Shown in pieces: positions 6,668-53,833 of a stretch of DNA of 64,000 nt. Source of the DNA: Bacteroidota bacterium (lineage in GTDB: Bacteria > Bacteroidota > Ignavibacteria > Ignavibacteriales > Ignavibacteriaceae); NCBI GenBank assembly GCA_022564295.1, contig JADFLR010000009.1:62001-126000 (forward strand). Reading direction: 5' to 3'. Position numbers and translations under genes: made by a program. Positions within the stretch are counted from its first letter, which is position 1. Every line of letters starts with the position of its first letter. Below the pieces are notes generated by a model. It was given only the letters and a program-made list of their open reading frames with translations, searched no databases and was not told where the DNA came from.

Positions 6668-8578
6668 ATGGCAACAGTAAAAACAAAATCAAAAAAGTTT
6701 CATTTTAAAGCTGAGGTAAAGCAGCTGCTCGATATACTTGTTCATTCACTTTATACAAGCAGAGATATATTCTTAAGAGAATTGATTTCTAACTCATCCG
6801 ATGCTTTGGATAAGCTGAGATTTGAATCCAATAAAGGCACTAAAATTATCGATAACAAACTCCCCCTGGAGATAAAAATTACTTTTGATGAGAAGAAGAA
6901 GATTTTAATAATTGAAGATAGCGGCATTGGTATGACAAAGGACGAGATAATTAGCGACATCGGTACGATTGCTAAGTCGGGTTCAGCAGAATTTTTGAAG
7001 CAGCTTACGGAGACTAAACAGGATGCAAGTAATATAATAGGAAAGTTTGGTGTCGGTTTCTATTCTATTTTTATGGTAGCTAAAGAGGTAATAATTAAAA
7101 CCAAATCATACAAAAAAGATGAACCAGCAATTATGTGGAAATCCGATGGGCTTGGCGATTATGAAATTTCCGAACTTGATGAAAAGATTAAAAGAGGAAC
7201 AACAATTGAAATTCATCTGAAAGATGACGCAGAAGAATTTGCCGAAAAGTATCGGCTGGAATCAGTAATTAAAAAATATTCCAACTTTATTCAATTCCCA
7301 ATCTTATTGGAAAAAGAAAAAGTAAATACGGTATCTGCTATTTGGCGTGAACCTAAGAGCTCTGTAACCAAAGAGCAGTATGCTGAATTTTATAAGTATT
7401 TAAGTCTCGATAGCGAAGAACCGTTCGAAACAATTCACACATCTGTTGATGCGCCAATACAATTTAGTGCGCTCCTCTTCATTCCTAAAAAGAGTAATGA
7501 GTGGTTTAAATATAACCGCGAAGATTATGGTTTGGATCTTTATGTAAAAAGAGTATTAATTCAGCATAAGAATAAAGACCTCTTGCCAGAATATTTAAGC
7601 TTTATTGTAGGCGTGGTTGATTCGGAAGATTTGCCGTTGAACATATCGAGAGAAACTTTACAGGAAGATATAATCTTCAATAAAATTTCATCAAGCGTTA
7701 CAAGCCAGGTGCTTTCGTATCTGCAAAAAATTGCTAAAGATGACAAGGGACAATATGTAAAATTCTGGAAAGAGCATGGACAAATTTTTAAACTCGGTTA
7801 TATGGATTTTACAAATGCTGAAAAATATACAGGCTTGCTCAGATTTAATTCTTCATCCTCAAAAGATGCTGATGAATTAGTTTCTCTTGATGAATATGTT
7901 GAAAGAATGAAAAAGGATCAGAAAGAAATTTATTATGCGTTGGGACCAAGCAGAGATGCACTTGCCTTCGATCCCCATCTTGAAATATTTAAGAGTAAGG
8001 GAATTGAGGTGCTTTATCTTTACGACCCTATTGATGAATTTGTAATAAGTGCACTTGGTAAGTATAAAGATTTTGATCTTAAATCTGTTGAAAATGCTGA
8101 TCCAAATAAGCTTGAACAAATGGAATCGGTTGAAGAGAAGAAAGAAGAAACCAAAAAGTTAAATAGTGATGATCAGCTTCATTTCGATAGTTTATTAGCA
8201 AAAATGAAAGAGATACTTGGTGACAGAGTTGAAGATGTAAAAGAATCGAACAGATTAACCGGAAGCCCCTCCTGCCTTGTTGCTAAAGAAGAAGGCATGT
8301 CTGCTTCAATGTTAAAGATGATGAAAATGGTTAATCAGCAGGTGAGCGAACAGAAAAAAATATTCGAAGTGAATAAGGATCATAAATTATTGCGAAATTT
8401 ATTAACAGTATTTAAAAAATCATCTGCCGATGATTACATTAAAAACGTAACGGAGCAGTTATATGAATCTGCTTTGCTGCTTGAAGGATCGCTTGATGAT
8501 CCGCATAAACTTGTTAACAGGTTAAATAAAATGTTAGAAGAATCGAGTGGGTGGTACGTTGAAGTAAAGAAATATTAA
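6668..8578 (+). CDS. htpG: Molecular chaperone HtpG (Hsp90 family)
   Basis: HtpG is the bacterial Hsp90, an ATP-driven dimeric chaperone of the cytoplasm. The 636-residue protein has the GHKL ATPase motifs in order: ELISNSSDALDKLR near residue 37, the DSGIGM ATP-binding loop near residue 84, GKFGVGFYSIFMV near 121, and a GTTIEIHL strand near 178. The middle domain contains PLNISRETLQ, with the conserved arginine that contacts the ATP gamma-phosphate. The C-terminal dimerisation domain is complete, with no MEEVD tail, as expected in bacteria. The start at 6668 has AAGGAG about 12 nt upstream. Confidence 0.97.
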   Translation: MATVKTKSKKFHFKAEVKQLLDILVHSLYTSRDIFLRELISNSSDALDKLRFESNKGTKIIDNKLPLEIKITFDEKKKILIIEDSGIGMTKDEIISDIGTIAKSGSAEFLKQLTETKQDASNIIGKFGVGFYSIFMVAKEVIIKTKSYKKDEPAIMWKSDGLGDYEISELDEKIKRGTTIEIHLKDDAEEFAEKYRLESVIKKYSNFIQFPILLEKEKVNTVSAIWREPKSSVTKEQYAEFYKYLSLDSEEPFETIHTSVDAPIQFSALLFIPKKSNEWFKYNREDYGLDLYVKRVLIQHKNKDLLPEYLSFIVGVVDSEDLPLNISRETLQEDIIFNKISSSVTSQVLSYLQKIAKDDKGQYVKFWKEHGQIFKLGYMDFTNAEKYTGLLRFNSSSSKDADELVSLDEYVERMKKDQKEIYYALGPSRDALAFDPHLEIFKSKGIEVLYLYDPIDEFVISALGKYKDFDLKSVENADPNKLEQMESVEEKKEETKKLNSDDQLHFDSLLAKMKEILGDRVEDVKESNRLTGSPSCLVAKEEGMSASMLKMMKMVNQQVSEQKKIFEVNKDHKLLRNLLTVFKKSSADDYIKNVTEQLYESALLLEGSLDDPHKLVNRLNKMLEESSGWYVEVKKY

Positions 8579-41649: not shown

Positions 41650-41999
41650 ATGCCCTCCTCCGGGTTTAGTGATAGATAATACAACTAAATAACTAGTAAT
41701 TATATCAAGTAAGGTAAGTCCGCATAAATTTAGTTACAAACTTACCAATTGAAAATATGAATTAATCATCTTATTACAAAGAACAAATTAATTTAATACA
41801 ATTTTATTATTATTCTTTTACGTTGGATGAAAAAACAAATTAAACGATGAGGCTGCGAGGAATGAAGCAAAAATGCTCGAAAATATAATTGTCAATTGTT
41901 TTTTGAAGTAATCTTCGTTCTCGAAATAGCTTGTAAAACCCACTTTAAAAAAATAGCAACTCAGTAAAGCACGAAAACTTTCAGTTATCGGGCTTTTTT
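41650..41999. other. Intergenic stretch upstream of the element
   Basis: No gene is seen. The TonB receptor promoter lies at its left part. A hairpin-like sequence GAAAACTTTCAGTTATCGGGCTTTTTTG ends directly at the attL copy of the tRNA 3' half and may be the old terminator of the tRNA-Lys gene on the other strand or part of the junction. Confidence 0.3.
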
Positions 42000-42046
42000 G
42001 TGCACCCTACCGGGTTCGAACCGGTGACCTGCTGATTAAGAGTCAG
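42000..42046. other. attL: displaced tRNA-Lys 3' half
   Basis: This 47-bp copy of the tRNA 3' half differs from the intact gene at only two positions: A instead of G (10th base) and T instead of C (26th base). Both lie in the T-stem and pair with each other, so the change is compensatory. The sequence after 42046 diverges completely. Confidence 0.92.
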
Positions 42047-42134
42047 TATAGCATTGTGGGTTTATGGGCAAAAGATTAAAGGTTTGATTTCAGTCCAATG
42101 ATATCTTCCTAAAGATCCAGGAGGTATTCATAAC

Positions 42135-43157
42135 ATGTATTTAATTAAAACTAATAAGTCTCCCTTCTATCAAGTGATGTATAAGAAAAATGGTAAGTGG
42201 ACTTCAAAGAGTAGTGGAGAGACAATAAAATCAAGAGCATTTATCTTTTTATCAGAGTTTAAAGAAAATCTTACCAGGCAGCCTAATTTAATTCCACATA
42301 CAATTGAAAGTTTTAAGGATGAATATATTGAGCAAAAAAAAACAACTCATACTAAAAGCTATATTAGGAGTATTAAATATTCATTTTCAGAGCTGATTAA
42401 ATTTGCTGGTAACATTCGATTAGATTATGTAGATGTTAGAACTGCAGAAAATTTTATTTTTGAAACTTTCCAAAAGTCCTATCACGCTGCAGCCCTTCAC
42501 CATAGAACATTAAAGGCTGCATTCAGCAAAGCAATATTTTGGGAATATGTTTCAGAAAATCCTTTCAAGAAAATTAAATCACCAAAAATCCCGATCAAAT
42601 TACCAGTGTTTATTAACGCCCGGGAACTGAAACAGATACTAGACAAAACCGAATCTAAACTTTTTAGGGATATTTTTATAGCAGCATTTTTAACCGGCGC
42701 GAGGCTTGGTGAAATTCTTAATCTTAAATGGAATGGAGTAGATCTTACTAATCAAATTTTAACTGTAAAGAATACTGTGGAATTTACTACAAAAAACAAA
42801 AGAGAAAGAGTAATTCCAATAAATTCCGAACTTCAGATAATACTTAAACATCGTTTTCCGAAAGTGATCGATCTGAAATTAGATGAATTTGTTTTCTGGA
42901 AAGTTAAAGGTGTGAAACTGAATAATGATTATGTAAGTAAAAAATTTAAAGCTGCTGTGAGAGCGTCAGGTTTAGATGATAAAATTCATTTTCATACACT
43001 CCGGCATTCATTTGCTTCACGGTTAGTACAAAAAGGAGTTGCATTATATGTCGTTAAAGAATTACTAGGGCATGAAGATCTAAGAACAACACAAATTTAT
43101 GCACATATTTCTACTGCAAATTTGGTTGATGCGGTTAAGAATCTTTCAGTATACTGA
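42135..43157 (+). CDS. int: Tyrosine recombinase/integrase (Int1)
   Basis: This 340-residue site-specific recombinase likely integrates and excises the element. The N-terminal part (about 1-45) resembles the arm-type DNA-binding beta domain (FYQVMYKKNGKWTSKSSG). The core-binding SAM-like domain is at about 55-150. The catalytic domain carries the RHRY set: Arg in TGARLGEIL, the HTLRHSFAS box, the histidine in LLGHEDLRTT and the tyrosine in QIYAH. It lies 88 bp inside attL, reads away from it and has AGGAGG before the ATG. It is about 50 percent identical by eye to Int2 (51352-52317) in the catalytic half. Confidence 0.94.
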   Translation: MYLIKTNKSPFYQVMYKKNGKWTSKSSGETIKSRAFIFLSEFKENLTRQPNLIPHTIESFKDEYIEQKKTTHTKSYIRSIKYSFSELIKFAGNIRLDYVDVRTAENFIFETFQKSYHAAALHHRTLKAAFSKAIFWEYVSENPFKKIKSPKIPIKLPVFINARELKQILDKTESKLFRDIFIAAFLTGARLGEILNLKWNGVDLTNQILTVKNTVEFTTKNKRERVIPINSELQIILKHRFPKVIDLKLDEFVFWKVKGVKLNNDYVSKKFKAAVRASGLDDKIHFHTLRHSFASRLVQKGVALYVVKELLGHEDLRTTQIYAHISTANLVDAVKNLSVY

Positions 43158-43307
43158 AAGTATTTATAAAACAAGGATGAGTAATTCAATATTACAGAGG
43201 TGGAATTGATTATTTTTTCTTCCCGTAGTTCTATATGTAATTTCTATTTATTAAATTAACTTTACAGATATGTAAATGTAAAGCATAAAAATTGACCAGG
43301 AGGAGTC

Positions 43308-44858
43308 ATGGCGACATTAGTAAATTTAGATGCTCTATTAAAGAGAGAAGACTTTGATATCGTTGGGGATTCCGAACAAACAATGCAACTCCAGACTATC
43401 CAAATTAGGGATTTAGAGCCTACGGCGTTCTTTTATGTTGTTCTGAGAAAACCAGTATTTCAGAGAGAAACAGCTGACTGGAATACCAAAAAGGTTGTAG
43501 ACTTTATACAATGTTTCTTATCCGGAGATTTAATTCCATCAATAATTCTATGGCGTACAAAAGCAAGTCAGGTTTTTGTAATTGATGGGGCACATAGGCT
43601 TAGTGCCTTAATAGCCTGGGTTAATGACGATTATGGTGATGGAGATATTTCAAAATCTTTTTTTGAATTCAGCATACCTGAGGATCAAGTTAGTGTTGCA
43701 AATAAGACAAGAGATTTGATACATAAATCTATAGGTTCTTACAAAGATCATAAATTTGCTGCAGAACATCCAGAGCGGTCAACAACCGATATTGTTGAGC
43801 GGGTCAGACAATTAGCAACCTTAGGCATTCAAGTTCAATGGGTTAAAGGGACATCAGAAAAGGCCGAGGCTGCATTTTTCAAGATTAACCAAGAACCAGT
43901 TACAATCAATAAAACTGAAATTCGCTTATTGCAATCAAGAAATAAACCTAATGCAGTGGCAGCTAGAGCAATAATAAGATCAGGGACTGGTCATAAATAT
44001 TGGTCCGCGTTTAATGAAGAAAACAAATTGGATATCGAATCGATTGCTAAAAATATTAATGAAATTTTATTCGTTCCTTCAATGTCAAAACCTGTTAAAA
44101 CATTAGATCTTCCAATTGGGGGACAAGTATATTCTGCTAAAGCACTGCCTTTGGTTTTAGATTTAGTAAATCTAACAAACGATAATATTTCTGATAAAGA
44201 TCTGGATGATGATATTGACGGTTACCAAACGATAAAATTTCTGAATAACACAAAGCGAATTGTATATCAAATATCAGGAATGCATGCTTCCTCATTGGGA
44301 TTACACCCCATTGTTTATTTTTACAGTGTTTATGCATATTATCAACCAACCTCATTTTTTGCTATTGTTTCCTTGATTATGGATTTTCATAGAACCAAAG
44401 GATATAAAAAATTTATTGACAACCGGGCGAAACTCGAAAAATTTCTTTTACAGCATAAAGACATTCAAAACCAAGTCGCTGTTAAGTATGGCGTTGGATT
44501 AAAAGGACAAAAGTATTTAGTAGAATTATATAATTTCCTGATAGATGAGTTTGATAATGGAGTCGAAAATTCAGAAGTGATAAGTAAATTACAAGTACAT
44601 CAGACATTTAGGTTTTTAAAACTAAATGGCGACGTAAACATTCTCGAGAAAAGAAAAGATTTTTCAACTGAAACAAAGTCTGCTGCGTTTATAAGAGAAG
44701 CATTACAAAACCCCTTGACTTGCAGTATTTGTGGTGGATTAATTCATAGCCCCTCCATTACATTTGATCACAAAATTAGGAAACAAAATGGAGGAAAAGG
44801 TAATTTAGATAATGCTCAAATTGCTCATCCTTATTGTAATACTACTTATAAAAATTAA
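43308..44858 (+). CDS. DUF262-type protein fused to an HNH nuclease domain
   Basis: The 516-residue protein begins with a DUF262/ParB-like nucleotide-processing domain; its diagnostic motif is VIDGAHRLSALIAW near residues 91-104 (usually I-D-G-Q-Q-R-L). The C-terminus is a zinc-type HNH domain: CSICGG at 472-477, FDHKIRKQNGG at 486-496, N502, HPYCN at 507-511. Cysteines 472, 475 and 510 probably hold zinc. DUF262-HNH proteins include the GmrSD type IV restriction enzymes and other anti-phage genes, so defence cargo is plausible. GmrSD-type proteins also carry DUF1524, which is absent here. Start: ATG after AGGAGGAG. Confidence 0.87.
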   Translation: MATLVNLDALLKREDFDIVGDSEQTMQLQTIQIRDLEPTAFFYVVLRKPVFQRETADWNTKKVVDFIQCFLSGDLIPSIILWRTKASQVFVIDGAHRLSALIAWVNDDYGDGDISKSFFEFSIPEDQVSVANKTRDLIHKSIGSYKDHKFAAEHPERSTTDIVERVRQLATLGIQVQWVKGTSEKAEAAFFKINQEPVTINKTEIRLLQSRNKPNAVAARAIIRSGTGHKYWSAFNEENKLDIESIAKNINEILFVPSMSKPVKTLDLPIGGQVYSAKALPLVLDLVNLTNDNISDKDLDDDIDGYQTIKFLNNTKRIVYQISGMHASSLGLHPIVYFYSVYAYYQPTSFFAIVSLIMDFHRTKGYKKFIDNRAKLEKFLLQHKDIQNQVAVKYGVGLKGQKYLVELYNFLIDEFDNGVENSEVISKLQVHQTFRFLKLNGDVNILEKRKDFSTETKSAAFIREALQNPLTCSICGGLIHSPSITFDHKIRKQNGGKGNLDNAQIAHPYCNTTYKN

Positions 44859-45192
44859 AGGTTGATTATTCAACTGTCTGATTATTATTGACTCACCACC
44901 AGCCAACTCACAACTAATGATTAAACGAGAGTAATAGTAAGCTGCTATTTAAATTGATTTGAAATAATTATATATTTAAATGAATCTCAAACGGGTTCAT
45001 CCGGCCCCTGCAATTAAAATGCCTTAGCCACCAATTAGGGTTTGCAGGGGTTTTTTATATTACAGGGGCGCGGTATGACGTGAGTCAGGCGCAGTAACTG
45101 AATAGATATGTATACTCTTGCTTAGAAAGCCCCGCAAAATTAATTTGTGTGCGAAATAAACCTATATTTACAACCAAAAGGAGTATACCGGA
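44859..45192. other. Intergenic stretch between the DUF262-HNH and HTH genes
   Basis: No gene is seen in about 330 bp. It holds the strong hairpin terminator at 45005-45056, and a leader with AAGGAG before the first HTH gene. Confidence 0.4.
45005..45056 (+). terminator. Strong hairpin terminator in the element
   Basis: CCCCTGCAA (45005-45013) pairs perfectly with TTGCAGGGG (45042-45050) and is followed by TTTTTT. The 28-nt interior can form a second, weaker hairpin. It is 146 bp past the DUF262-HNH stop, so it probably ends that transcript. Confidence 0.8.
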
Positions 45193-45477
45193 ATGGAAAA
45201 TACAACAGTAACATTAACTGATGCTCAATTTGAGCAGCTTACAAAAATATTGGCTCGGGCTTTAAAAAAGTGGATGCCTCGCGATGTATACACTTATGAG
45301 CAGGCAGCACATCGTTTGGGTATAAGTAAAAATCGTGTGAGAAGGGATTACATTTTAACCGGCAGGCTGGATATTGTTATGATAGATGGGCAGATGAAAA
45401 TACCCAATTATGCAATAGAGAATTACCTTAAAAGTAACACTAAATATTATGCTGAAGTAATAAAAAAAAGTAGATAA
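45193..45477 (+). CDS. Excisionase/MerR-like HTH protein (first of a tandem pair)
   Basis: The 94-residue protein has a short N-terminal acidic/amphipathic helix (MENTTVTLTDAQFEQLTKIL), then a small winged helix-turn-helix: YTYEQAAHRLGISKNRVRRD at about 37-56, followed by a wing and the GQMKIPNYAIENYL closing helix typical of excisionase-like (MerR-helix) proteins. It may direct excision by the integrases or repress the element's promoters. AAGGAG lies 9 nt upstream. The next gene is a close paralogue. Confidence 0.8.
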   Translation: MENTTVTLTDAQFEQLTKILARALKKWMPRDVYTYEQAAHRLGISKNRVRRDYILTGRLDIVMIDGQMKIPNYAIENYLKSNTKYYAEVIKKSR

Positions 45478-45531
45478 CACTTTCATCATTACAAATAAAC
45501 TAATTTTTATAACTACAAGGCACAAAACAAA

Positions 45532-45771
45532 ATGGAAAATACAGCAGAAACATTAAGTGATGAGCAATTTGAGCAGCTTACAAAAAAGTTGACCAGGGAA
45601 TTGAAAAAGCAGATGCCGCGGGATGCATATACTTATACGCAGGCGGCTCACAAGCTGGGTGTTGGGCGCAACCGAATATGGTTGGACTACATTAAAACCG
45701 GCAAGTTGGGTATAATTAGGATGGATGAGAGCTGGAAAATTACCAGTTATGAATTGGAGAATTACCTTTAA
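45532..45771 (+). CDS. Excisionase/MerR-like HTH protein (second of a tandem pair)
   Basis: The 79-residue protein is a tandem copy of the preceding one: MENTAETLSDEQFEQLTKKL and YTYTQAAHKLGVGRNRIWLD align directly, ending in SYELENYL. It is shorter, lacking the C-terminal tail after the closing helix. Recognition-helix residues differ (KNRVRRD versus RNRIWLD), so the two probably bind different sites. The gap between the genes is 54 bp and they presumably share a transcript. Confidence 0.78.
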   Translation: MENTAETLSDEQFEQLTKKLTRELKKQMPRDAYTYTQAAHKLGVGRNRIWLDYIKTGKLGIIRMDESWKITSYELENYL

Positions 45772-45814
45772 GTAATGCGAAATAAGTTATGGCAGCGATT
45801 AAGAAATAAAGCAC

Positions 45815-45843
45815 TTGACTTCCTTCTCAAAAATTAATATCTT
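45815..45843 (+). promoter_or_regulatory. Sigma-70-like promoter of the radC leader
   Basis: TTGACT (45815-45820), then a 17-bp spacer, then TATCTT (45838-45843). Transcription would start near 45850, giving a structured leader of about 150 nt before radC. Confidence 0.6.
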
Positions 45844-45892
45844 ATAACCGTCTAATTTCGATGGCGGTTGATCCGCTCCGTAATGCGGTTAT
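45844..45892 (+). ncRNA. First hairpin of the radC leader
   Basis: ATAACCG (45844-45850) pairs with CGGTTAT (45886-45892); inside lies GCGG/CCGC with a TTGAT loop. The segment GTCTAATTTCGATGGCGG recurs almost unchanged as GTCTAATTCGATGGAGG just before radC, where it holds the ribosome binding site. Confidence 0.5.
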
Positions 45893-45908
45893 TTCATTTT
45901 AAATAATC

Positions 45909-45970
45909 GGCCAAGTATCCTGCTTCCGCGAGGAGTGGGGTGTTCCATCGAACACAGACAATACTTGGCC
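45909..45970 (+). ncRNA. Three-way-junction leader RNA 1 (upstream of radC)
   Basis: P1 is GGCCAAGTAT (45909-45918)/ATACTTGGCC (45961-45970), 10 bp, perfect. Stacked directly on it are P2 CCTGCTTC/GGAGTGGG (45919-45926 and 45932-45939, loop CGCGA, with G-T pairs) and P3 GTGTTC/GAACAC (45940-45945 and 45950-45955, loop CATC). A 5-nt linker AGACA returns to P1. A T-rich stretch follows. The fold was made by hand. Confidence 0.65.
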
Positions 45971-45999
45971 TTTCTTATGTCTAATTCGATGGAGGAAAT

Positions 46000-46479
46000 A
46001 TGCCTAATAATAAACAACGTGCCCTGGCAAAGCGGATAAGGACCATCACGTGGAAGTTTCGTGATGTAAGTGATAGTTACCCTGAGCTCAAAAAAAACAG
46101 GGATATTAAAATTACCTCTCCGGGTGATTTATATAACACTTTTAAATTTTTGTTCGATCACGAAGTGAAAGAAAAATTTGTTGTCTTTTGGTTGAGTTCG
46201 GCCAATAAAGTTATCGGCTTTGAGATTGTGAGTGAAGGTAATTTAAATAGTTCGGTTGTTCACCCTCGAGAAGTATTCAGGGGAGCCATAGTCAGCAGCT
46301 GTGCAAGTATTATTATAGCTCATAATCATCCGAGTGGAAATACAGATCCTTCCGGTGAGGATATTATTATAACAAAAAGATTAGTTAAGGTAGGAAAAAT
46401 AATTGATATACCAGTTTTCGATCATATTATTTTTACAAATGATTCATACACTAGTTTTATAGAGAGAAGAATACTGTAA
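46000..46479 (+). CDS. radC: RadC-like JAB-domain (MPN) protein
   Basis: This 159-residue MPN/JAB metal-protease-fold protein is of the RadC type. Metal-site motifs are visible: glutamate in GFEIVSEGNLN, and H-x-H-P-S-G...D in IIIAHNHPSGNTDPSGEDI near residues 106-124, the JAMM signature ExnHxHx7Sx2D. The N-terminal HhH region of long RadC proteins is missing and replaced by a short helix. Such proteins are common on integrating elements and phages, possibly as anti-restriction or processing factors. The start has GGAGG 5 nt upstream, directly below a structured leader. Confidence 0.9.
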   Translation: MPNNKQRALAKRIRTITWKFRDVSDSYPELKKNRDIKITSPGDLYNTFKFLFDHEVKEKFVVFWLSSANKVIGFEIVSEGNLNSSVVHPREVFRGAIVSSCASIIIAHNHPSGNTDPSGEDIIITKRLVKVGKIIDIPVFDHIIFTNDSYTSFIERRIL

Positions 46480-46500
46480 ATTTTTATAATTAAAAGAAAG

Positions 46501-46527
46501 GGCGAACAATCAATGTAACTGTTCGCC
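46501..46527 (+). terminator. Hairpin after radC
   Basis: GGCGAACA (46501-46508) pairs perfectly with TGTTCGCC (46520-46527), 11-nt loop, 21 bp past the radC stop. The tail is TTAATCT, weakly T-rich. Confidence 0.6.
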
Positions 46528-46670
46528 TTAATCTCCGATAGATATTTATGGGCAGAGCATAGTTTTCGCAACAGCTAATGTAGAAAATATTCTCTAAAAG
46601 TCAAGAATAATTTTAAGGATAAACAATTTTTCAACATTCAATTTCATTTTAATTTTTTTTTCTATATAAT

Positions 46671-46773
46671 ATTGAAGAAATTAGAAATAGAATTACTATC
46701 GGTAATTTTTCGACAATTCGTTTACTGTTATGATTTTAAATTGTAAACTATTGAAGCAATTAGAAATAGAATT
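46671..46773. repeat. Iteron-like direct repeat pair
   Basis: ATTGAAGAAATTAGAAATAGAATT (46671-46694) and a copy with one substitution (46750-46773) are separated by 79 bp start to start in the gap between radC and the next gene. It may bind the element's replication or control protein. The rest of the 425-bp gap is AT-rich and has no gene. Confidence 0.6.
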
Positions 46774-46819
46774 CTGATTGTTATTTAAAACTGGATATAA
46801 AATGAAAAGAATTTTAAAC

Positions 46820-46884
46820 AAATCCCTTTTGATTGGTTCGTTAGAACTACCTGGTCACAGGTATCCAGCAATCAAAGGGGATTT
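46820..46884 (+). ncRNA. Three-way-junction leader RNA 2
   Basis: P1 is 16 bp with a single G-T pair: 46820-46835 against 46869-46884. Directly stacked are P2 GTTC/GAAC (46836-46847, GTTA loop) and P3 TACCTG/CAGGTA (46848-46863, GTCA loop). A 5-nt linker TCCAG returns to P1. A T-rich stretch and the ribosome binding site of the next gene follow within 20 nt. Folded by hand. Confidence 0.75.
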
Positions 46885-46904
46885 CATATTTTAGGGAGTT
46901 AGTG

Positions 46905-47153
46905 ATGCAAAAAATAAATGTGTTTCAATCAATAAAGGGATTGGAAGGAATGCTGCCTGATGATGTCTTAGAAAGATTAAAGAAAATAGAAGATTATAAT
47001 GCTGAAGTAGATGCGCTAGAAAACGTGAGCTTGCTTCAGAAATTACTTGTAAAAGTTAATCAAGGTGATCTTATTGGCGCTCGTGATATAGTAGATAATA
47101 GCAGCCCATCTTTTCAAGAGTTCTTAGCAAGATCGGGCGGAGATTCTAATTAA
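46905..47153 (+). CDS. Small unknown element protein (82 aa)
   Basis: This 82-residue protein begins MQKINVFQSIKGLEGMLPDD and is predicted mostly helical and acidic (QKLLVKVNQGDLIGARDIVD, then a Ser/Gly-rich tail). No family is recognised. I choose the ATG at 46905, which has GGAG 7 nt upstream, rather than the GTG three bases earlier. It stands directly below leader RNA 2, and leader RNA 3 follows it, so it may be part of a set of individually controlled genes. Confidence 0.65.
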   Translation: MQKINVFQSIKGLEGMLPDDVLERLKKIEDYNAEVDALENVSLLQKLLVKVNQGDLIGARDIVDNSSPSFQEFLARSGGDSN

Positions 47154-47222
47154 AAATTTAGTGTTCATAGAATAAATTTTATCAATAATCAGTTAATAAA
47201 AATGCTTAGTACTTTTATAAAT

Positions 47223-47287
47223 ACCGTTTCAACTGTTCCCGCTTAGGGAAAGCCAGAAAGCAACTGGCTAATTGCAGTTGAGGCGGT
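47223..47287 (+). ncRNA. Three-way-junction leader RNA 3
   Basis: P1 is 13 bp with two G-T pairs: ACCGTTTCAACTG (47223-47235) against CAGTTGAGGCGGT (47275-47287). P2 is TTCCC/GGGAA (47236-47250, loop GCTTA). P3 is AGCCAG/CTGGCT (47251-47269, loop AAAGCAA). The linker AATTG is 5 nt. TTTTTATTTT follows. Same layout as leaders 1 and 2. Confidence 0.75.
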
Positions 47288-47309
47288 TTTTATTTTAGGT
47301 TAATGGAAA

Positions 47310-48131
47310 ATGGAAAGCACTGAAATAAGGCGTTTAATTCTTCGCCTGCGGTCTGATAAAGACAGCCTTAAACTTGAAAAAAAGGAAATTAAATTTCCCC
47401 TCAAAAAGTTTCCTGTTTCGAATAAACCACTTCGATCTCAGCAAAGTATTGATTGGTTTGAAGAAGCAGATAATCCAACTATAGGCCGTCATTCAAATAT
47501 TAAATTGGCAAAGTATCTTTACTATAATTCCGAGGGTGCAGAAATTGATAAAAAGAAATACGATGAATTATTTGTAGATGCAGGTAAAGAAACAAAGAAA
47601 ATTGAGGGAGAAATAATCCATTTGGAAGGGAGAATTTCCAAATTACAAAAGGGGCTGATAAAAGCAGAAAATGAGGAATCACTAGAAGTAAAATCCTCTG
47701 ATGATACTGAGGTCGGAGACCAGGAATTATCCAGTGAGATTAATTTTAACCATCAATCAGAAACAACAAGTGAGAACATTGGGGATACTGTTCCTGGCAA
47801 TGATAAAATTACTTGGAATGAGGAAATGGTAAAAAAATATGCTGCCAAACTTTTAAATATGCCTGAGATACGATTTAATAATTTAATTCAGAGTAAGAAG
47901 AAGGGTTATAAACAGATCATTACTGATGCATTTTCTCAGCTTTATAGTCACGTTAAAGATAATGGTGCTTATGTAATCAAGATGGATTTTTCTAAAATAG
48001 TTTTTCCCATAATATTAAATTGTTATAACATCGATGATAAAACTTGGAAGGTAGAAGATTTTAGTAATCGATTGTGTTATATAAAAAATAAACGTCAAAG
48101 AAAATTAATTAATGAGATCATAAAAGACTGA
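47310..48131 (+). CDS. Unknown element protein, charged and partly coiled (273 aa)
   Basis: The 273-residue protein starts MESTEIRRLILRLRSDKDSL, is strongly charged in its first 160 residues (a coiled-coil-like KKIEGEIIHLEGRISKLQKG), then has an acidic low-complexity linker. The last 100 residues look globular (MVKKYAAKLLNMPEIRFNNL). No known family is recognised. It is a separate unit below leader RNA 3 and upstream of the tail-type genes, so a DNA- or virion-associated role is possible but unproven. Confidence 0.6.
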   Translation: MESTEIRRLILRLRSDKDSLKLEKKEIKFPLKKFPVSNKPLRSQQSIDWFEEADNPTIGRHSNIKLAKYLYYNSEGAEIDKKKYDELFVDAGKETKKIEGEIIHLEGRISKLQKGLIKAENEESLEVKSSDDTEVGDQELSSEINFNHQSETTSENIGDTVPGNDKITWNEEMVKKYAAKLLNMPEIRFNNLIQSKKKGYKQIITDAFSQLYSHVKDNGAYVIKMDFSKIVFPIILNCYNIDDKTWKVEDFSNRLCYIKNKRQRKLINEIIKD

Positions 48132-48265
48132 AAATTCATATCCCCCCACTTCTGAAGGCATTTAGTCATATCCAACCTTGATTGTTCCCTGGTATTTTAC
48201 TTTTTTTGTGTAAAATAAACGGCCATTATTTACGAATTGTAACTAATGTCAATTGCTAATTTTGC

Positions 48266-48342
48266 AAGAAGAGAACAGGTAAAAGCAAACAAGTTTCCGT
48301 TAACCTAAAACCCGATCATCTCTTCTTGATCGGGTTTTCTTT
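48266..48342 (+). promoter_or_regulatory. Terminator with an upstream anti-loop sequence (possible attenuator/pseudoknot)
   Basis: A strong terminator, AAAACCCGATCA (48307-48318)/TGATCGGGTTTT (48327-48338), has the loop TCTCTTCT. The nine bases AAGAAGAGA (48266-48274) are perfectly complementary to the loop plus one base (TCTCTTCTT, 48319-48327). This allows a pseudoknot or an alternative structure before the tail chaperone gene. Confidence 0.55.
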
Positions 48343-48393
48343 TTATAGGGAATTGAAATTTTCTTTAATTAATAATTGTGAAAGGAGAAACTT

Positions 48394-48783
48394 ATGCCAC
48401 GTGAATTAAAAAGCAGTGATAAAAATGAATTCTCAATCTTTGACAAATTCTCCGGAGAAAATATTCTTCTTTATTATCGCACCCCAACCACAAAGGAATA
48501 TATTGAATACAGGGTGGCTTTGATAAATCTTGCATCAACCTTGGCAGAACCGGCAGAGATTACAAAGACACAGATTGAGTGGGCAAAAAAAATAATGACT
48601 GGTTTTGGGACCGGTGATTTTATGGTGGATGGAAAACCTATATCATCTAATGAGAAAGATGAAAATTATTACCAGGGCTGGAGGGGATTACTGGAAGAGA
48701 CAGCCACTGATATTCTATTACTGCTGACGCACAATATTTTAGAAGAATCTTGTTACGCAATTAAAACCGTTAGGAAAGTATAA
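48394..48783 (+). CDS. Putative phage tail assembly chaperone
   Basis: The 129-residue protein is recognised mainly by position: it ends 2 bp before a tape-measure gene, the usual place of the tail chaperone. It has the pattern FSGENILLYYRTPTTKEYIE followed by a helical core, like small Caudovirales tail chaperones. A programmed frameshift extension was looked for but not found. Ribosome binding site AAAGGAG lies 8 nt upstream. The call rests on context more than on motif. Confidence 0.55.
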   Translation: MPRELKSSDKNEFSIFDKFSGENILLYYRTPTTKEYIEYRVALINLASTLAEPAEITKTQIEWAKKIMTGFGTGDFMVDGKPISSNEKDENYYQGWRGLLEETATDILLLLTHNILEESCYAIKTVRKV

Positions 48784-48785
48784 AA

Positions 48786-50726
48786 ATGCCAAATAAGGTT
48801 CGAATTGACATTGATGGTAACAACCGTGGCGCTGTAACTGCTATTAATGGTGTTTCGACAAAGCTGCTCGGTATGGAGCGGCAAGCAGGAACATCAAGCC
48901 AGAAGATGGGCACCTCTTTTTCAAAAATGGGCGGAATGATTGGCGGCTTAAAAACAAAGTTAGCTTTGATGGGAGTTGCTGCTGTTACAGCCTTTGGTTA
49001 TATGATAAAAAGTGCTATAGATACCGCCGAAAGTTTGGAAAAGATGAGCCAGAGAGTTGGTCTGTCAGTTGAATTTTTATCTACACTCCGTCACGCTACA
49101 GAATTAAGCGGCACGGAAATATCCGTTATGGAAAAAGCGGTTCAGAGAATGAGCCGTACCTTGTTTGATGCTAACCGTGGTTTACTTACAGCACAAATCC
49201 CCTTTAAAGAATTAGGCATTGCCGTAAGCGATAGTATGGGACAATTACGTAATGGTGAAGTGATTATTTTAGAAGTTGCTGATCGTTTTTCTAAAATGAA
49301 GGATGGAACGGAAAAGACAGCTCTGGCATTGCAAATATTTGGTAGAGCAGGCGCCGATCTTATCCCTCTGCTTAACTCTGGCGCTGATGGTATTAGAAGG
49401 ATGCAGGAAGAAGCTCGCGCATTAGGGTTGGAGATAAGTACCAAAACCGCAAAGAACGCTGCAGAGCTAAAAGATAATATGCTCCGCCTTGAACGTTCTG
49501 TAACCAGGGTAGTGAATAAGATAGCGGAAGGATTAATTCCTGTGTTAAATGGATTAGTCACTTCTTTGTCATCAATCCCTACTGATCTTATTAGAGTAGC
49601 TGGTGAAGCAGGAGCCTTATTACTTGTAATCCGGTCATTAGGGTGGGCAGTAAATGCTTTGAATATAAAGGTGCTCGCATCGAGGGCAGCGTTTTTAAAA
49701 TCTGGCTGGGGTATTTTGATAGTAGCTGCGGGAACCCTGGCAGCAGAATTACTTATTGTAGAGAAATCTACTGAAAAATTAGATAAGGGATTAAATAAGA
49801 ACACAAAAAGCCTTGATTGGATGGATGGCAATTTAAGACGCGTTGGTAATCGTCTTATTAGAATAACAAAAGAATCAGCTGGTTTAACAGATGAGCAAAT
49901 TAAGGCATTGGAAATACTTAATAAACAATGGGCGGGCATTTCTTCAAAACTTCAAAAAGATATTTTGCTTTTAGGTTTAAATCCTCAACACAAAAAAATG
50001 ATTGAACTTAATCTGAAGGCGGAAGAGTACCGGCAGAGATTTGGATCAGTACCGGGTGCAATGACACAAATAAGTAATTGGTATGATACACTAATATTTA
50101 AAGCTGCAGCATTAAATGAAATAAGTGCACGTGGTCTGGGCATTCCCGAAGGTGGAGAAAAATTTGAACCGACTCCCCTGGTTGATACGACGCAGATAGA
50201 CGCAGCTCATCAGGCGCAGATAGATGGGATAATGCGGGTATCTGATTTTGAATTAGCTAACTGGGCATTAAGGGAGGCTGCCGCATCAGGGTCCTTTGCT
50301 ATGATGTCCGGTGCAGCGCAAGCGTATTATGAAGCTTTTGGTAATGCGGGACGAAAAGGTTTTGGAATATATAAAGCTTTTGCAATAGGTGAAGCTGTTA
50401 TGGCGACATATCTTGCCGCAGATAAAGCGCTGGGAACGGTGCCGTTTCCGTTTAATATTCCGGTGATGGCTTCAATAATAACTATGGGGTTAGCTAACGT
50501 AGCAAAAATCTCTGCGATGCAGCCCGGAAGCAGCGGTGGAGGTGTACCTTCTTACTCTGCACCTGCATTGCCGGGAAATGTTGTTAATAACCAGAGCACC
50601 AACACGCGCAACTTCGATTTTAACATTACAATTATTAACCAAGGTAACTTAGATCCTGATGAGTTAGATGCAATTGCAAGACAGTTGATAGGTTCATTAC
50701 GAAAAGCGGAAAATGATGGGGCTTAA
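48786..50726 (+). CDS. Phage tail tape-measure protein
   Basis: The 646-residue protein has the layout of tail tape-measure proteins: an N-terminal alpha-helical charged region, hydrophobic segments near 55-75 (LKTKLALMGVAAVTAFGYMI), 270-325 and 540-580 (IGEAVMATYLAADKALGTVP), a middle helical region with LRHATELSGTEISVMEKAVQ and RMQEEARALGLEISTKTAKN, and a C-terminal Gly/Ser segment. TMPs set siphophage tail length; at 646 residues this would make a short tail (about 100 nm by the usual 1.5 A per residue). No tube, portal or capsid gene is present in the window. Confidence 0.86.
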   Translation: MPNKVRIDIDGNNRGAVTAINGVSTKLLGMERQAGTSSQKMGTSFSKMGGMIGGLKTKLALMGVAAVTAFGYMIKSAIDTAESLEKMSQRVGLSVEFLSTLRHATELSGTEISVMEKAVQRMSRTLFDANRGLLTAQIPFKELGIAVSDSMGQLRNGEVIILEVADRFSKMKDGTEKTALALQIFGRAGADLIPLLNSGADGIRRMQEEARALGLEISTKTAKNAAELKDNMLRLERSVTRVVNKIAEGLIPVLNGLVTSLSSIPTDLIRVAGEAGALLLVIRSLGWAVNALNIKVLASRAAFLKSGWGILIVAAGTLAAELLIVEKSTEKLDKGLNKNTKSLDWMDGNLRRVGNRLIRITKESAGLTDEQIKALEILNKQWAGISSKLQKDILLLGLNPQHKKMIELNLKAEEYRQRFGSVPGAMTQISNWYDTLIFKAAALNEISARGLGIPEGGEKFEPTPLVDTTQIDAAHQAQIDGIMRVSDFELANWALREAAASGSFAMMSGAAQAYYEAFGNAGRKGFGIYKAFAIGEAVMATYLAADKALGTVPFPFNIPVMASIITMGLANVAKISAMQPGSSGGGVPSYSAPALPGNVVNNQSTNTRNFDFNITIINQGNLDPDELDAIARQLIGSLRKAENDGA

Positions 50727-50803
50727 TATCAGATTATAATTTTAAATATGACAGACATCTACATTACATTTCAATTTCATTTTTGTATAGCACACATTTT
50801 TTT

Positions 50804-50848
50804 GAGCTTGCCTGTTCGTGGATGTCCGGGTGAGCTCTTTTATTTTTT
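50804..50848 (+). ncRNA. Hairpin leader upstream of the 165-aa gene
   Basis: GAGCT (50804-50808) pairs with AGCTC (50833-50837), with extra G-C/G-T pairs between GCCTG and CGGGT. TTTTATTTTTT follows and the next start codon is 28 nt beyond the stem. It is smaller than the three-way-junction leaders and does not share their fold, but sits in the same position. Confidence 0.5.
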
Positions 50849-50864
50849 ATCAGGATATTGTTAA

Positions 50865-51362
50865 ATGTTGAGCAAGACAGATGCAAGGGCTTACAATCGT
50901 TTTTATGATCGGATTGATGAGCTGATTTCAAATGATAAAATTACTTATAGGCTTGGTCTAGAAATTATAAGTATCCTGAGTTGGGTTCTTCATACAAAAA
51001 AATATGCTAATCCGGAAAAGATAATAAGTTGTGAAGCATATAGAGATAGAATGGATAGCAGATCAGAATTTCAATTGCGCGGGGATGAAATAGATTTTGA
51101 TACTAAAGAATTTATTAATTCACTATGCAAATCAATCTCGATACAAATATTAAAAATCGATTGCTACATTAGAGAAGCTTCAAAGTTAAAATCTCACAAC
51201 ACTCAAAATAAATTTCTAACCCTGGTAATTGAAAGACTAAATAATAGTGAGAGCGGTTTAATGGAAGTCTCTGAGATCCTCACAGAATTTCTTGACAGCC
51301 AAACCGATATGGATGTAGAAATGTTGTTATCCAGATATGTAAAGGAGTGTGATGACAATTAA
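50865..51362 (+). CDS. Unknown helical element protein (165 aa)
   Basis: This 165-residue protein is rich in alpha helix and charge (MLSKTDARAYNRFYDRIDEL, later KFLTLVIERLNNSESGLMEV). No family is recognised. Its last codons overlap the start of the second integrase by 11 nt, with the integrase ribosome binding site AAGGAG inside this gene. The two are therefore coupled, and the protein may take part in recombination, for instance as a directionality factor. Confidence 0.6.
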   Translation: MLSKTDARAYNRFYDRIDELISNDKITYRLGLEIISILSWVLHTKKYANPEKIISCEAYRDRMDSRSEFQLRGDEIDFDTKEFINSLCKSISIQILKIDCYIREASKLKSHNTQNKFLTLVIERLNNSESGLMEVSEILTEFLDSQTDMDVEMLLSRYVKECDDN

Positions 51363-52317
51363 CAAAAAATTATTTTTAAGTTTGTTAGGTGAACGGGATT
51401 TGCAAGAGTTAAGAATGTTATTATCGGTCAGTTCAGATGTAAAGCTTAAGCAGTCCCGGGATGAGTACATCGATTCAATGCAGCATACTCATTCAAAAGC
51501 TTACATTCAATCAAGCAACTCTTCATTAACTGCTTTTATGAAATTCGTTGGTGATATTCCCTTATCGAAAATTGATATGAGAATGGCTGAAGGATTTGTG
51601 TTAAACCATTTCAAAAGATCTCAGTATTCAGCAGCTCTTCATTATAGAAATTTGAAAGCCGCTTTCAATAAATTTTTGCTCTGGAAATACATTGTTGAAA
51701 ATCCATTTGTGCAGGTTAAGCTACCAAGGATGCACAAGCCTAAGCCTACATATCTCACTCCTGCCGAACTTCAAATTATATTAGGGAATACAAGCGCAGC
51801 ATATTTGAAGGATATTTTTGTTTTTGCTTTCAATAGTGGTCTACGCCTTGGCGAATTATTAAATCTCAAATGGAATGCTGTTGATTTAAAAAAAAGAGTT
51901 GTCACGGTCCGTAATACCCCAGAATTTAATACAAAGAATAAAATGGATAGAGTAATTCCAATTAACCAGGAATTATTTATCGTTCTTAAAAACCGGTACC
52001 CGAAAGTAATAGATTATAAACTGAATGAATATGTGTTTTGGAAAGTTAAGGGTGTGAAGCTGAATAACGACTTTGTGAGTAAGCAATTCAAAAAGGTTGT
52101 GAGAGCTTCTGCTCTAGATAACAAAATTCACTTTCATACGCTCAGGCATTCCTTCGCATCTCAATTGGCTCAAAAAGATGTTTCGCTCTATGTTATTCAG
52201 AAGCTCTTAGGTCATAATTCAATTATTACCACACAGACCTATTCTCATCTGAATATCGATACATTAAGAAACGCAACTGATAAGCTCTCAATTGTTGTGG
52301 AGGGATGCTTGCTTTGA
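51352..52317 (+). CDS. int: Second tyrosine recombinase/integrase (Int2)
   Basis: The 321-residue recombinase has no obvious arm-binding N-domain, unlike Int1. The core-binding domain (about 45-145) contains SAALHYRNLKAAFNKFLLWK. The catalytic domain carries Arg in SGLRLGELL, HTLRHSFAS, the histidine in LLGHNSIITT and the tyrosine in QTYSH, so all RHRY residues are intact. It is a close paralogue of Int1 with shared stretches such as YVFWKVKGVKLNND. I start it at the ATG at 51352 (AAGGAG upstream). Confidence 0.92.
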   Translation: MTINKKLFLSLLGERDLQELRMLLSVSSDVKLKQSRDEYIDSMQHTHSKAYIQSSNSSLTAFMKFVGDIPLSKIDMRMAEGFVLNHFKRSQYSAALHYRNLKAAFNKFLLWKYIVENPFVQVKLPRMHKPKPTYLTPAELQIILGNTSAAYLKDIFVFAFNSGLRLGELLNLKWNAVDLKKRVVTVRNTPEFNTKNKMDRVIPINQELFIVLKNRYPKVIDYKLNEYVFWKVKGVKLNNDFVSKQFKKVVRASALDNKIHFHTLRHSFASQLAQKDVSLYVIQKLLGHNSIITTQTYSHLNIDTLRNATDKLSIVVEGCLL

Positions 52318-52396
52318 AACCCTCATTTGCCAATAATTTTTTATAAGAGAAACGGCACTGGAAATATTCACAAAATAAATTTAAGGATTTTGAGAT

Positions 52397-52594
52397 ATGG
52401 AAAAAGAGATAAAAAGAATAGTTTCTGATTATGTTATTGTGGGTGGTATAGCTGGTAAACCGAATCTAATAGTAATAGAGCAAGGTGATTATTCGGTTGC
52501 CTTGGACATCGATCAAATAGGTCTCTTTGTGAAACAGCTTGAGGGGGTTGCAAAAGAAATGACTGAACGATTAATTGAAAGTGAAGAAGAATAA
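52397..52594 (+). CDS. Small unknown element protein (65 aa)
   Basis: The 65-residue protein (MEKEIKRIVSDYVIVGGIAG...) has alternating hydrophobic strands and an acidic tail; no family is recognised. It ends 5 bp before the DnaD-like gene, so the two are almost certainly co-transcribed. It may be an accessory or regulatory protein of the replication module. Confidence 0.55.
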   Translation: MEKEIKRIVSDYVIVGGIAGKPNLIVIEQGDYSVALDIDQIGLFVKQLEGVAKEMTERLIESEEE

Positions 52595-52599
52595 ACTCT

Positions 52600-53268
52600 A
52601 TGAAAAAAGGGTGGATATCTATACACAGGGAACTAACGGAGCATTGGCTTTGGGAAGACAAACCTTTTAGCAATGGCCAGGCATTTATTGATATGTTACT
52701 TGAGTGTAACCACAAATCAAAAGAGGTGAGGATCGGGAATGAAATCGTTTATTGTAATAGGGGAGAATCAATTAAATCACTTGACACCTGGGCTAAACGT
52801 TGGGGATGGAATAAATCAAGGGTTAGAAGATTTTTAAAATTACTTGAAAAGGCGAACACAATTGAAACGAAAAAAGCACGCAACACAACCTACTTAAGTA
52901 TTTGTAATTATGATAATTATCAGGGCAATCAAAATGAAAATGAAACGAAAGTGAAACGAATCGGAAACAAACCTGAAACAAACCTGACACCAAACAATAA
53001 TGACAATAATGATAATAATGGTAGTAGTAGTGATCCGCCACAATTACAGATAGTTAAATTATTTGCTATTTGGGGTAGAGCTTCAGATAACGGAGAAAAA
53101 GCAAAGTGTGAGAATTTACTAAAGCAGTTTGGATGGGAAAAGGTTTGGAATGCGTTTCACCGTGCAAGCGAAATGGGTAAGGAGAAAAAGAATCTGGCAT
53201 ACGTGAAGGGGATTTTAACCAACCCGGATAGAGGCGGGGGGCGTTTTGATAAATCAATTGGTAATTAA
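52600..53268 (+). CDS. DnaD-like phage replication initiation protein
   Basis: The 222-residue protein has an N-terminal winged helix similar to phage replisome organisers: KGWISIHRELTEHWLWEDKP followed by WGWNKSRVRRFLKLLEKANT near 65-84 (recognition helix). A low-complexity Asn/Glu/Lys linker (about 107-145) leads to a helical C-terminal region (about 147-215), like the DnaD second domain. This suggests an origin-binding protein that loads the host helicase. The linker-coding DNA is partly repeated in decayed form at 53448-53523. Confidence 0.78.
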   Translation: MKKGWISIHRELTEHWLWEDKPFSNGQAFIDMLLECNHKSKEVRIGNEIVYCNRGESIKSLDTWAKRWGWNKSRVRRFLKLLEKANTIETKKARNTTYLSICNYDNYQGNQNENETKVKRIGNKPETNLTPNNNDNNDNNGSSSDPPQLQIVKLFAIWGRASDNGEKAKCENLLKQFGWEKVWNAFHRASEMGKEKKNLAYVKGILTNPDRGGGRFDKSIGN

Positions 53269-53447
53269 AAGTTAAATGATAGAACCAATTAAATCACCAT
53301 CAGCACCGGAAGCAGATGCACAAATATATCATCATGGGTCCTTACTCAGAGCACTAAATACGGATACCGAAGGAGCCTATAAAACCTCGATGTAATTAAT
53401 AAAATAGTATGACATGAACATGAACCATAAATGAAAACATTACGACA

Positions 53448-53523
53448 CACTTAAGAGTTTGTAATTACAATACTTATCAAGTCAATCAAAACGAAAGTAA
53501 AACAAATCAGAAACAAATTTAAC
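53448..53523 (+). pseudogene. Decayed duplicate of part of the DnaD-like gene
   Basis: CACTTAAGAGTTTGTAATTAC and the following AATCAAAACGAAAGTAAAAC and AATCAGAAACAAATTTAAC resemble 52892-52976 in the DnaD-like gene in the same order, with small deletions. No reading frame survives. The remaining 490-bp stretch up to attR has no gene. Confidence 0.6.
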
Positions 53524-53759
53524 TATGATGTATATATTGTTGTGGTATAAAGCCATTTGGTTTTTGATAATGGAATTTTTAATTTTATTATATAAGCTAC
53601 GGCTTTAGTATAAATGTTTTTTAATAATTTAAATAGGATTTTAAGAAGAGATATCATTAGTCCCTAGTAATCTCCCTAGTAGAATTATTGATCAATAGGG
53701 TATTGAAACAAACCACAAAAATAAAAACCTCAAAACGAGTTGATTCTGACGGTTTATTA

Positions 53760-53806
53760 GTGCACCCTGCCGGGTTCGAACCGGCGACCTGCTGATTAAG
53801 AGTCAG
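53760..53806. other. attR: tRNA-Lys 3' half at the right end of the element
   Basis: 47-bp direct repeat of attL with 45 matches, lying within the intact tRNA-Lys gene. Crossover is expected near the anticodon-loop side, at the end of the identity (GAGTCAG). Confidence 0.92.
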
Positions 53807-53833
53807 ATGCTCTGCCAACTGAGCTAAGGGTGC
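53761..53833 (-). tRNA. tRNA-Lys (anticodon CTT)
   Basis: The minus strand folds as a tRNA: acceptor GCACCCT/AGGGTGC with discriminator A, D-arm GCTC...GAGC with AGTTGGCA, anticodon stem CTGA/TCAG with loop CTCTTAA (anticodon CTT), T-arm GCCGG/CCGGC with loop TTCGAAC. No CCA is encoded. The 3' half is supplied by the integrated element. Confidence 0.95.

Follow-up and report, generated by a model that had tools for sequence, protein, structure and literature searches.

Three-way-junction leader RNAs with covarying upstream boxes, likely transcription attenuators, in integrative elements of Ignavibacteria

Three RNA structures, S1 (45909-45970), S2 (46820-46884) and S3 (47223-47287), all on the + strand, precede three genes of an integrative element in the 64-kb window (the whole 64,000-nucleotide stretch of DNA analysed here). 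Each is a three-way junction in which a stem (P1) encloses two hairpins (P2 and P3) and a short linker (J31) that leads from P3 back to P1. The three have relatives elsewhere: the family comprises 29 copies, spread over 18 Ignavibacteria genomes and two viral contigs (L178 and L220), and in most copies an upstream box covaries with the P3 loop and J31. We consider it likely that each structure is the expression platform of a two-state transcription attenuator that acts in cis through hypervariable box-loop pairing in integrative elements, and the folded leader RNA probably lets each element gene be switched separately during transcription. The design is unusual, since it would combine a branched terminator with a free loop and a linker that both dock on a single upstream strand, and it recurs ahead of several genes within one mobile element, each time with different co-varying pairing sequences. 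These results suggest that RNA-level attenuation controls the genes of a group of integrative elements in a bacterial class that has received little study.

The host element (41994-53806) is small and is delimited by a 53-bp imperfect repeat (four mismatches) of the 3′ end of tRNA-Lys, found at 41994-42046 and 53754-53806, with a tRNA at 53760-53833, and it contains two related tyrosine recombinase (integrase) genes at 42135 and 51349 that are 55% identical. Its cargo includes a GmrSD/HNH protein (43308), two HTH proteins, a RadC-like protein and several unknown genes; a phage tape measure protein gene at 48786 was the only recognised virion gene in the element. S1 is followed by the gene for the RadC-like JAB domain protein of 159 aa (46000-46479, + strand; PF04002, 2.9e-40), S2 by a gene for a protein of 82-83 aa with no family (46905-47153, + strand) and S3 by a gene for a charged protein of 273 aa with no confident family (47310-48131, + strand). 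Similar elements, marked by related integrases, occur in other Ignavibacteria, and some of them carry genes for DnaB, a DnaD-like loader, primase or terminase; the relatives look satellite-like. Two further local features of the element are a pair of adjacent HTH genes (45193-45477 and 45532-45771), which are 62% identical and represent a local duplication, and a direct repeat, ATTGAAGMAATTAGAAATAGAATT, at approximately 46674-46696 and 46752-46774 in the long intergenic region upstream of S2.

The first-pass annotation had placed S1-S3 at these coordinates and had folded them by hand as three-way junctions, and both points were borne out by minimum free energy (MFE) folds, an energy scan and a strict descriptor. 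For the RNA segments 45905-45985, 46815-46895 and 47218-47298, the MFE fold is in each case a three-way junction (z-scores −4.1, −6.2 and −6.6), with junction linkers J12 of 0, J23 of 0-1 and J31 of 4-5; both strands fold, the coding strand better. In a local-fold scan of both strands of the whole window, S1-S3 were the three lowest-energy three-way junctions. The descriptor, written by hand (8 or more pairs in P1, both hairpins perfect, linkers of 0-1, 0-1 and 3-7), matched the window at S1-S3 only, with scores of 25.5-32.5 and a 0-0-5 junction in every case, and no score of 21 or more occurred in 5.12 Mb of dinucleotide-shuffled sequence (the window shuffled 80 times). As putative terminators, the three have the following parts on the + strand: in S1, P1 is formed by 45909-45918 and 45961-45970, P2 by 45919-45939, P3 by 45940-45955 and J31 by 45956-45960, with the U-rich tail TTTCTTATGTCT at 45971-45982; in S2, P1 is formed by 46820-46835 and 46869-46884, P2 by 46836-46847, P3 by 46848-46863 and J31 by 46864-46868, followed by the tail CATATTTTAGGG; and in S3, P1 is formed by 47223-47235 and 47275-47287, P2 by 47236-47250, P3 by 47251-47269 and J31 by 47270-47274, followed by the tail TTTTATTTTAGG. 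The U-rich tails and the distances of 29, 21 and 22 nt to the ATG had also been read correctly at the outset.

Further copies were collected first by scanning related elements for the same geometry and then with a covariance model (R1, nine-member seed) run against 391 genomes of the class. A covariance-model search had been proposed as the check on the family, and it found further members, so the grouping of S1-S3 into a family stands; S3 matched the model at 47.6 bits and S2 at 27.6 bits, and S1 had no match. The initial statement that the structures share no clear sequence similarity holds among S1-S3 alone but not against the wider family, with which S3 and S2 have a weak core in common (P1 ending in G, then TT; RACC..GGTY in P3; often CAR in J31). 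Compensatory change in the stems had been claimed from the same three sequences, which are insufficient as proof; it is an alignment of 18 members that supplies it, with 89.8% of cells pairing and double-sided changes in 14 of 20 pairs. The covariation score of this alignment, which was fitted to the covariance model and hence leans towards it, was 0.655, compared with 0.261 in shuffles (0 of 500 as good) and at most 0.235 when slid. A MAFFT alignment of 20 members misaligned the stems, and the nine-member seed with covariance-model fitting was used instead; a MAFFT alignment of nine sequences, not fitted to any structure, gave the same covariation picture. Across the family, the innermost pair of P1 is G-C without exception and its neighbour is either U-G or U-A in every case; P3 has mostly 5-7 bp and J31 mostly 5 nt.

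The family is restricted to integrative elements of the class to which S1-S3 belong. Where contigs are named, their titles place the copies in Ignavibacteria, Melioribacteraceae, Stygiobacter, Kryptoniota and similar bins, and a phylum-wide search with a second model (R2; sample of 296 genomes) gave convincing matches within the class only. A viral pattern search for the P2 hairpin returned 40 stretches, none of which matched R1 at E ≤ 1. The member on viral contig L220 (806-867) has a box match of 5+7 bp, and the only integrase on that contig is a distant one. Weak covariance-model matches (L245-L247, 22-24 bits) lacked a significant box and were taken as chance. Rfam yielded no family match at gathering or relaxed thresholds, c4 antisense RNA and STAXI included, and a search of the open-access literature found no paper on an RNA motif in Ignavibacteria; the three-way-junction leader RNA is apparently an undescribed RNA family.

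The main new feature lies outside the segments first annotated. Listing the 90 nt upstream of every copy revealed a box, usually 9-19 nt upstream of P1, that consists of a J31 complement, a short A/T-rich gap and a P3-loop complement, and both of its targets are unpaired in the junction. The S1 box (45850-45864, + strand) reads GTCT (against AGAC in J31), AATTT and CGATGG (against CCATCG in the P3 loop), with 11.0 expected pairs and none of 26 swapped combinations as good. That of S2 (46791-46805, + strand) reads CTGGATAT (against GTATCCAG, the 3′ end of P3 plus J31), AAAA and TGA (against TCA in the loop), with 6.3 expected pairs and again 0 of 26 swapped as good, and that of S3 (47190-47207, + strand) reads CAGTTA (against TAATTG, J31), ATAAAAA and TGCTT (against AAGCA in the loop), with 1.5 expected pairs, which is weak in the energy model. 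Copies from other genomes illustrate how far the sequences differ while the match is kept: TACCAAAT-AGAT-TGTCCGAA against TTCGGACA..GTTTGGTA in G114a, CTGCTAA-AA-TTTTGGAA against TTCCAAAA..TTAGCAG in G033a and GTGCTGA-ATAAA-TTGCC against GGCAA..TCAGCAC in G263a. Under a fixed scoring rule, copies scored a mean of 23.3 with their own upstream sequence compared with 15.6 with that of another copy, and none of 10,000 permutations did as well. The G412 copy, which had come from the covariance-model search and had been left out of box discovery, showed 14.7 expected pairs (0 of 200 shuffles as good). The box was weak in one of two tests in four copies (L151, L159, L157a and G016), and it was not found at the expected place in G109, G107, L178 and G033c. 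In the subtype formed by G109, G107 and L178, without the usual box, a conserved additional hairpin lies 25-60 nt upstream of the three-way junction (loci L065, L089 and L178), and after it comes a T-rich stretch that ends in TTTTAAATG; a similar arrangement precedes S1 and G033d.

Partition-function calculations indicate that the box and P1 compete. For RNA extending up to J31, the expected number of pairs between upstream sequence and targets was 7.7 for a copy's own upstream sequence and 2.0 for swapped ones (0 of 20,000 permutations), and it dropped to 0.01 once the 3′ arm of P1 was added, in a calculation that covers nested folds only. Likewise, of the 20 copies whose box is clear, 19 had the box-target pairing as their MFE structure before P1 can form, and all 20 had the terminator afterwards. 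In the thermodynamic model of nested folds, then, the antiterminator and terminator folds are mutually exclusive, four copies being without a box.

We infer from the sequence that transcription can terminate at these structures, and the folding models point to the box as a putative antiterminator that would pair before P1 closes. In the proposed sequence of events, the nascent RNA would first expose the two-part box of about 11-20 nt. Once P3 and J31 are transcribed, and while the 3′ arm of P1 is still missing, the box would pair with the P3 loop and J31 to give the antiterminator. Emergence of the P1 3′ arm would then allow the P1-P2-P3 three-way junction, the more stable fold, and the closed junction with its U-tract, 9-35 nt ahead of the start codon, would act as an intrinsic terminator; the gene would thus be read only when the switch to P1 fails or comes late. 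The 0-0-5 junction and short P3 may serve to keep the loop and J31, both single-stranded docking sites, aligned with the two halves of the box. Because each copy has its own co-varying box and loop sequences, leaders within one element should not cross-talk, and the family offers a natural set of attenuators with differing box-loop sequences suited to orthogonality assays. The balance may be tipped by a trans-acting regulatory RNA, a protein or polymerase speed, or it may be purely kinetic, with no signal involved.

One variant of this mechanism, which we regard as rather unlikely, is that a terminated leader works in trans: with its P3 loop and J31 exposed, it would capture the box on newly made transcripts of that leader and force them to terminate. 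Because the complementarity is present in cis as well, sequence cannot separate such P4-type trans action from cis pairing. In satellite phage P4, a leader RNA silences the integrated satellite by premature termination via two complementary segments, immunity being exerted by the CI RNA with seqA and seqC (PMC4825925). In outline, the leaders described here may work like P4 immunity, in that an integrated element, premature (here predicted) termination in an untranslated leader and two complementary segments flanking a structured RNA are common to both. However, P4 relies on one processed trans-acting RNA, whereas here the box and two targets reside in the same leader, each leader has its own sequence, and the predicted pairing rests on complementarity in cis. 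If the trans reading were true, RNA-based immunity or copy control would be private to each element, incompatibility groups would be set by the box-loop pairs, which are hypervariable yet always matched, and the Ignavibacteria elements would hold an independent, many-leader counterpart of P4 immunity.

Since the box omits the middle of the P3 3′ arm, to which it is not complementary, the main rival to the two-state attenuator is a static double pseudoknot, in which the box would sit on the P3 loop and J31 without displacing P1 or a shortened P3, and the compact fold would act on translation start or protect the mRNA 5′ end, with termination secondary. The skipped part of the arm forms conserved CC/GG pairs with the 5′ arm, J31 and the loop are precisely the unpaired parts, and the structure ends 9-35 nt from the start codon, all as such a fold would have it. 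Nevertheless, we judge it improbable: the models release the box upon P1 formation (in nested folds only, pseudoknots being beyond scoring), the loop half of the box often takes the closing pair of P3 and the J31 half its base, a box-to-P1 linker of 9-12 nt in several copies seems too short to cross all the helices, and a static fold does not require a U-tract.

The U-tract is a general property of the copies. The T fraction after P1 is 0.82, 0.75, 0.79, 0.68 and 0.79 at positions 1-5 and about 0.25 by position 11; S2 is poor in this respect, and G033d (L087 15635-15713, minus strand), which has a long P1 of 23 pairs, has none. Aside from these two, a stable GC-containing stem is immediately followed by a U-tract, as in intrinsic terminators. 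Such features, good U-tracts and stable stems, would equally suit plain, non-switching terminators that shield each cargo gene from transcription coming from upstream, but we find this reading quite improbable given where the copies lie. From the end of P1 to the start codon the median distance is 21 nt, with 24 of 27 measured copies at 9-35 nt, whereas ordinary terminator-like hairpins between co-directional genes at the same loci have a median of 113 nt to the next start (5 of 23 within 35) and of 24 nt from the preceding stop codon. The three-way junctions therefore adjoin the downstream start and not the upstream stop, which makes them part of the following gene's leader, close to its start as in known attenuator arrangements, and 9-35 nt leaves no space for a promoter in between. 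Insulation also leaves the box-loop covariation unexplained. In 9 of 27 copies, compared with a mean of 3.0 in shuffles (0 of 500 as good), a match to a Bacteroidota-type promoter has its end 35-45 nt upstream of P1, which would put the box at the extreme 5′ end of the transcript; a standard sigma-70 scan gave a promoter count no higher than in shuffles. The attenuator reading, one of several in the first-pass annotation, thus gains support from the U-tract, the fixed start-codon distance and the upstream box that covaries with the P3 loop and J31.

Another of those readings, a folded single-stranded DNA site for the element's tyrosine recombinase or replication proteins (compare integron attC sites and single-strand origins), draws on the fact that a tyrosine recombinase belonging to one family lies no more than about 4 kb from most complete copies, and on the DnaB, DnaD-like or primase genes of some elements. 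We found it unsupported and hold it to be very improbable, as the sites have no crossover core sequence in common within or between elements, their P1 sequences are unrelated, the U-tract is one-sided, the start-codon distance is fixed, and the coding strand keeps 50 G-U compared with 14 A-C pairs (in the covariance-model alignment, which was fitted to that strand and so leans towards it). A ligand-sensing riboswitch or self-cleaving ribozyme, also suggested at first and in keeping with a complex conserved 5′-leader fold, is scarcely credible, because there is no invariant unpaired nucleotide, the unpaired sites covary with the box, the downstream genes are unrelated and Rfam has no match.

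Among the downstream genes, clear homologues were limited to the G107 and G109 proteins. Upstream of the closest RadC relatives, hairpins are present in some only, so the structure is not tied to the radC gene. The post-junction proteins of L240, L244, L235 and L241 are charged and some are alike in C-terminal helical stretches (32% over 47 aa for G351 and G386); the charged post-junction proteins of different elements are possibly one fast-evolving family.

Several known RNA systems resemble the leaders in part. Plasmid attenuators of the pT181 type, in which a countertranscribed antisense RNA kisses a separate leader hairpin (PMC3753616), are likewise RNA-only, and they too combine an intrinsic terminator with loop pairings that vary and can be exchanged, but here the docking sites are part of the branched terminator and their partner lies upstream in cis. 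Unlike the leader family, whose loops covary with the box, ANTAR antitermination is protein-dependent and has conserved loop bases, and c4 antisense RNA for its part also pairs through two segments. As in ANTAR systems, where a leader RNA structure competes with an intrinsic terminator (PMC8934654), the structure proposed here would be in such competition. The c4 antisense RNA (RF01695) and STAXI, which consists of pseudoknot repeats near integrases, are structured RNAs of phages and integrative elements (PMC2864571) that differ from the leader family in fold and taxa, and the family matches neither in Rfam.

Boxes also precede unbranched hairpin terminators in the element. The hairpin at 48307-48338 (+ strand), before the gene at 48394, has the loop region TCTCTTCTTG (48319-48328), to which a box at 48265-48274 (+ strand), CAAGAAGAGA, is complementary over 10 bp (1 of 1000 shuffles as good), and the hairpin at 50804-50837 (+ strand), before the gene at 50865, has the loop part GTGGATGTC (50818-50826), to which a box at 50754-50762 (+ strand), GACATCTAC, is complementary over 9 bp with one G-U (14 of 1000 shuffles as good). 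A 13-bp box-loop match was found for a hairpin at locus L063. In the sampled loci, where numbers are small, loop-bearing hairpin terminators had a loop-complementary box in 4 of 5 cases when a start lay within 60 nt and in 0 of 17 when it lay farther away. Lastly, L087 has two three-way junctions in tandem (8159-8236 and 8339-8415, minus strand), about 100 nt apart before one gene, whose P1 stems have CGTTCAT in common.
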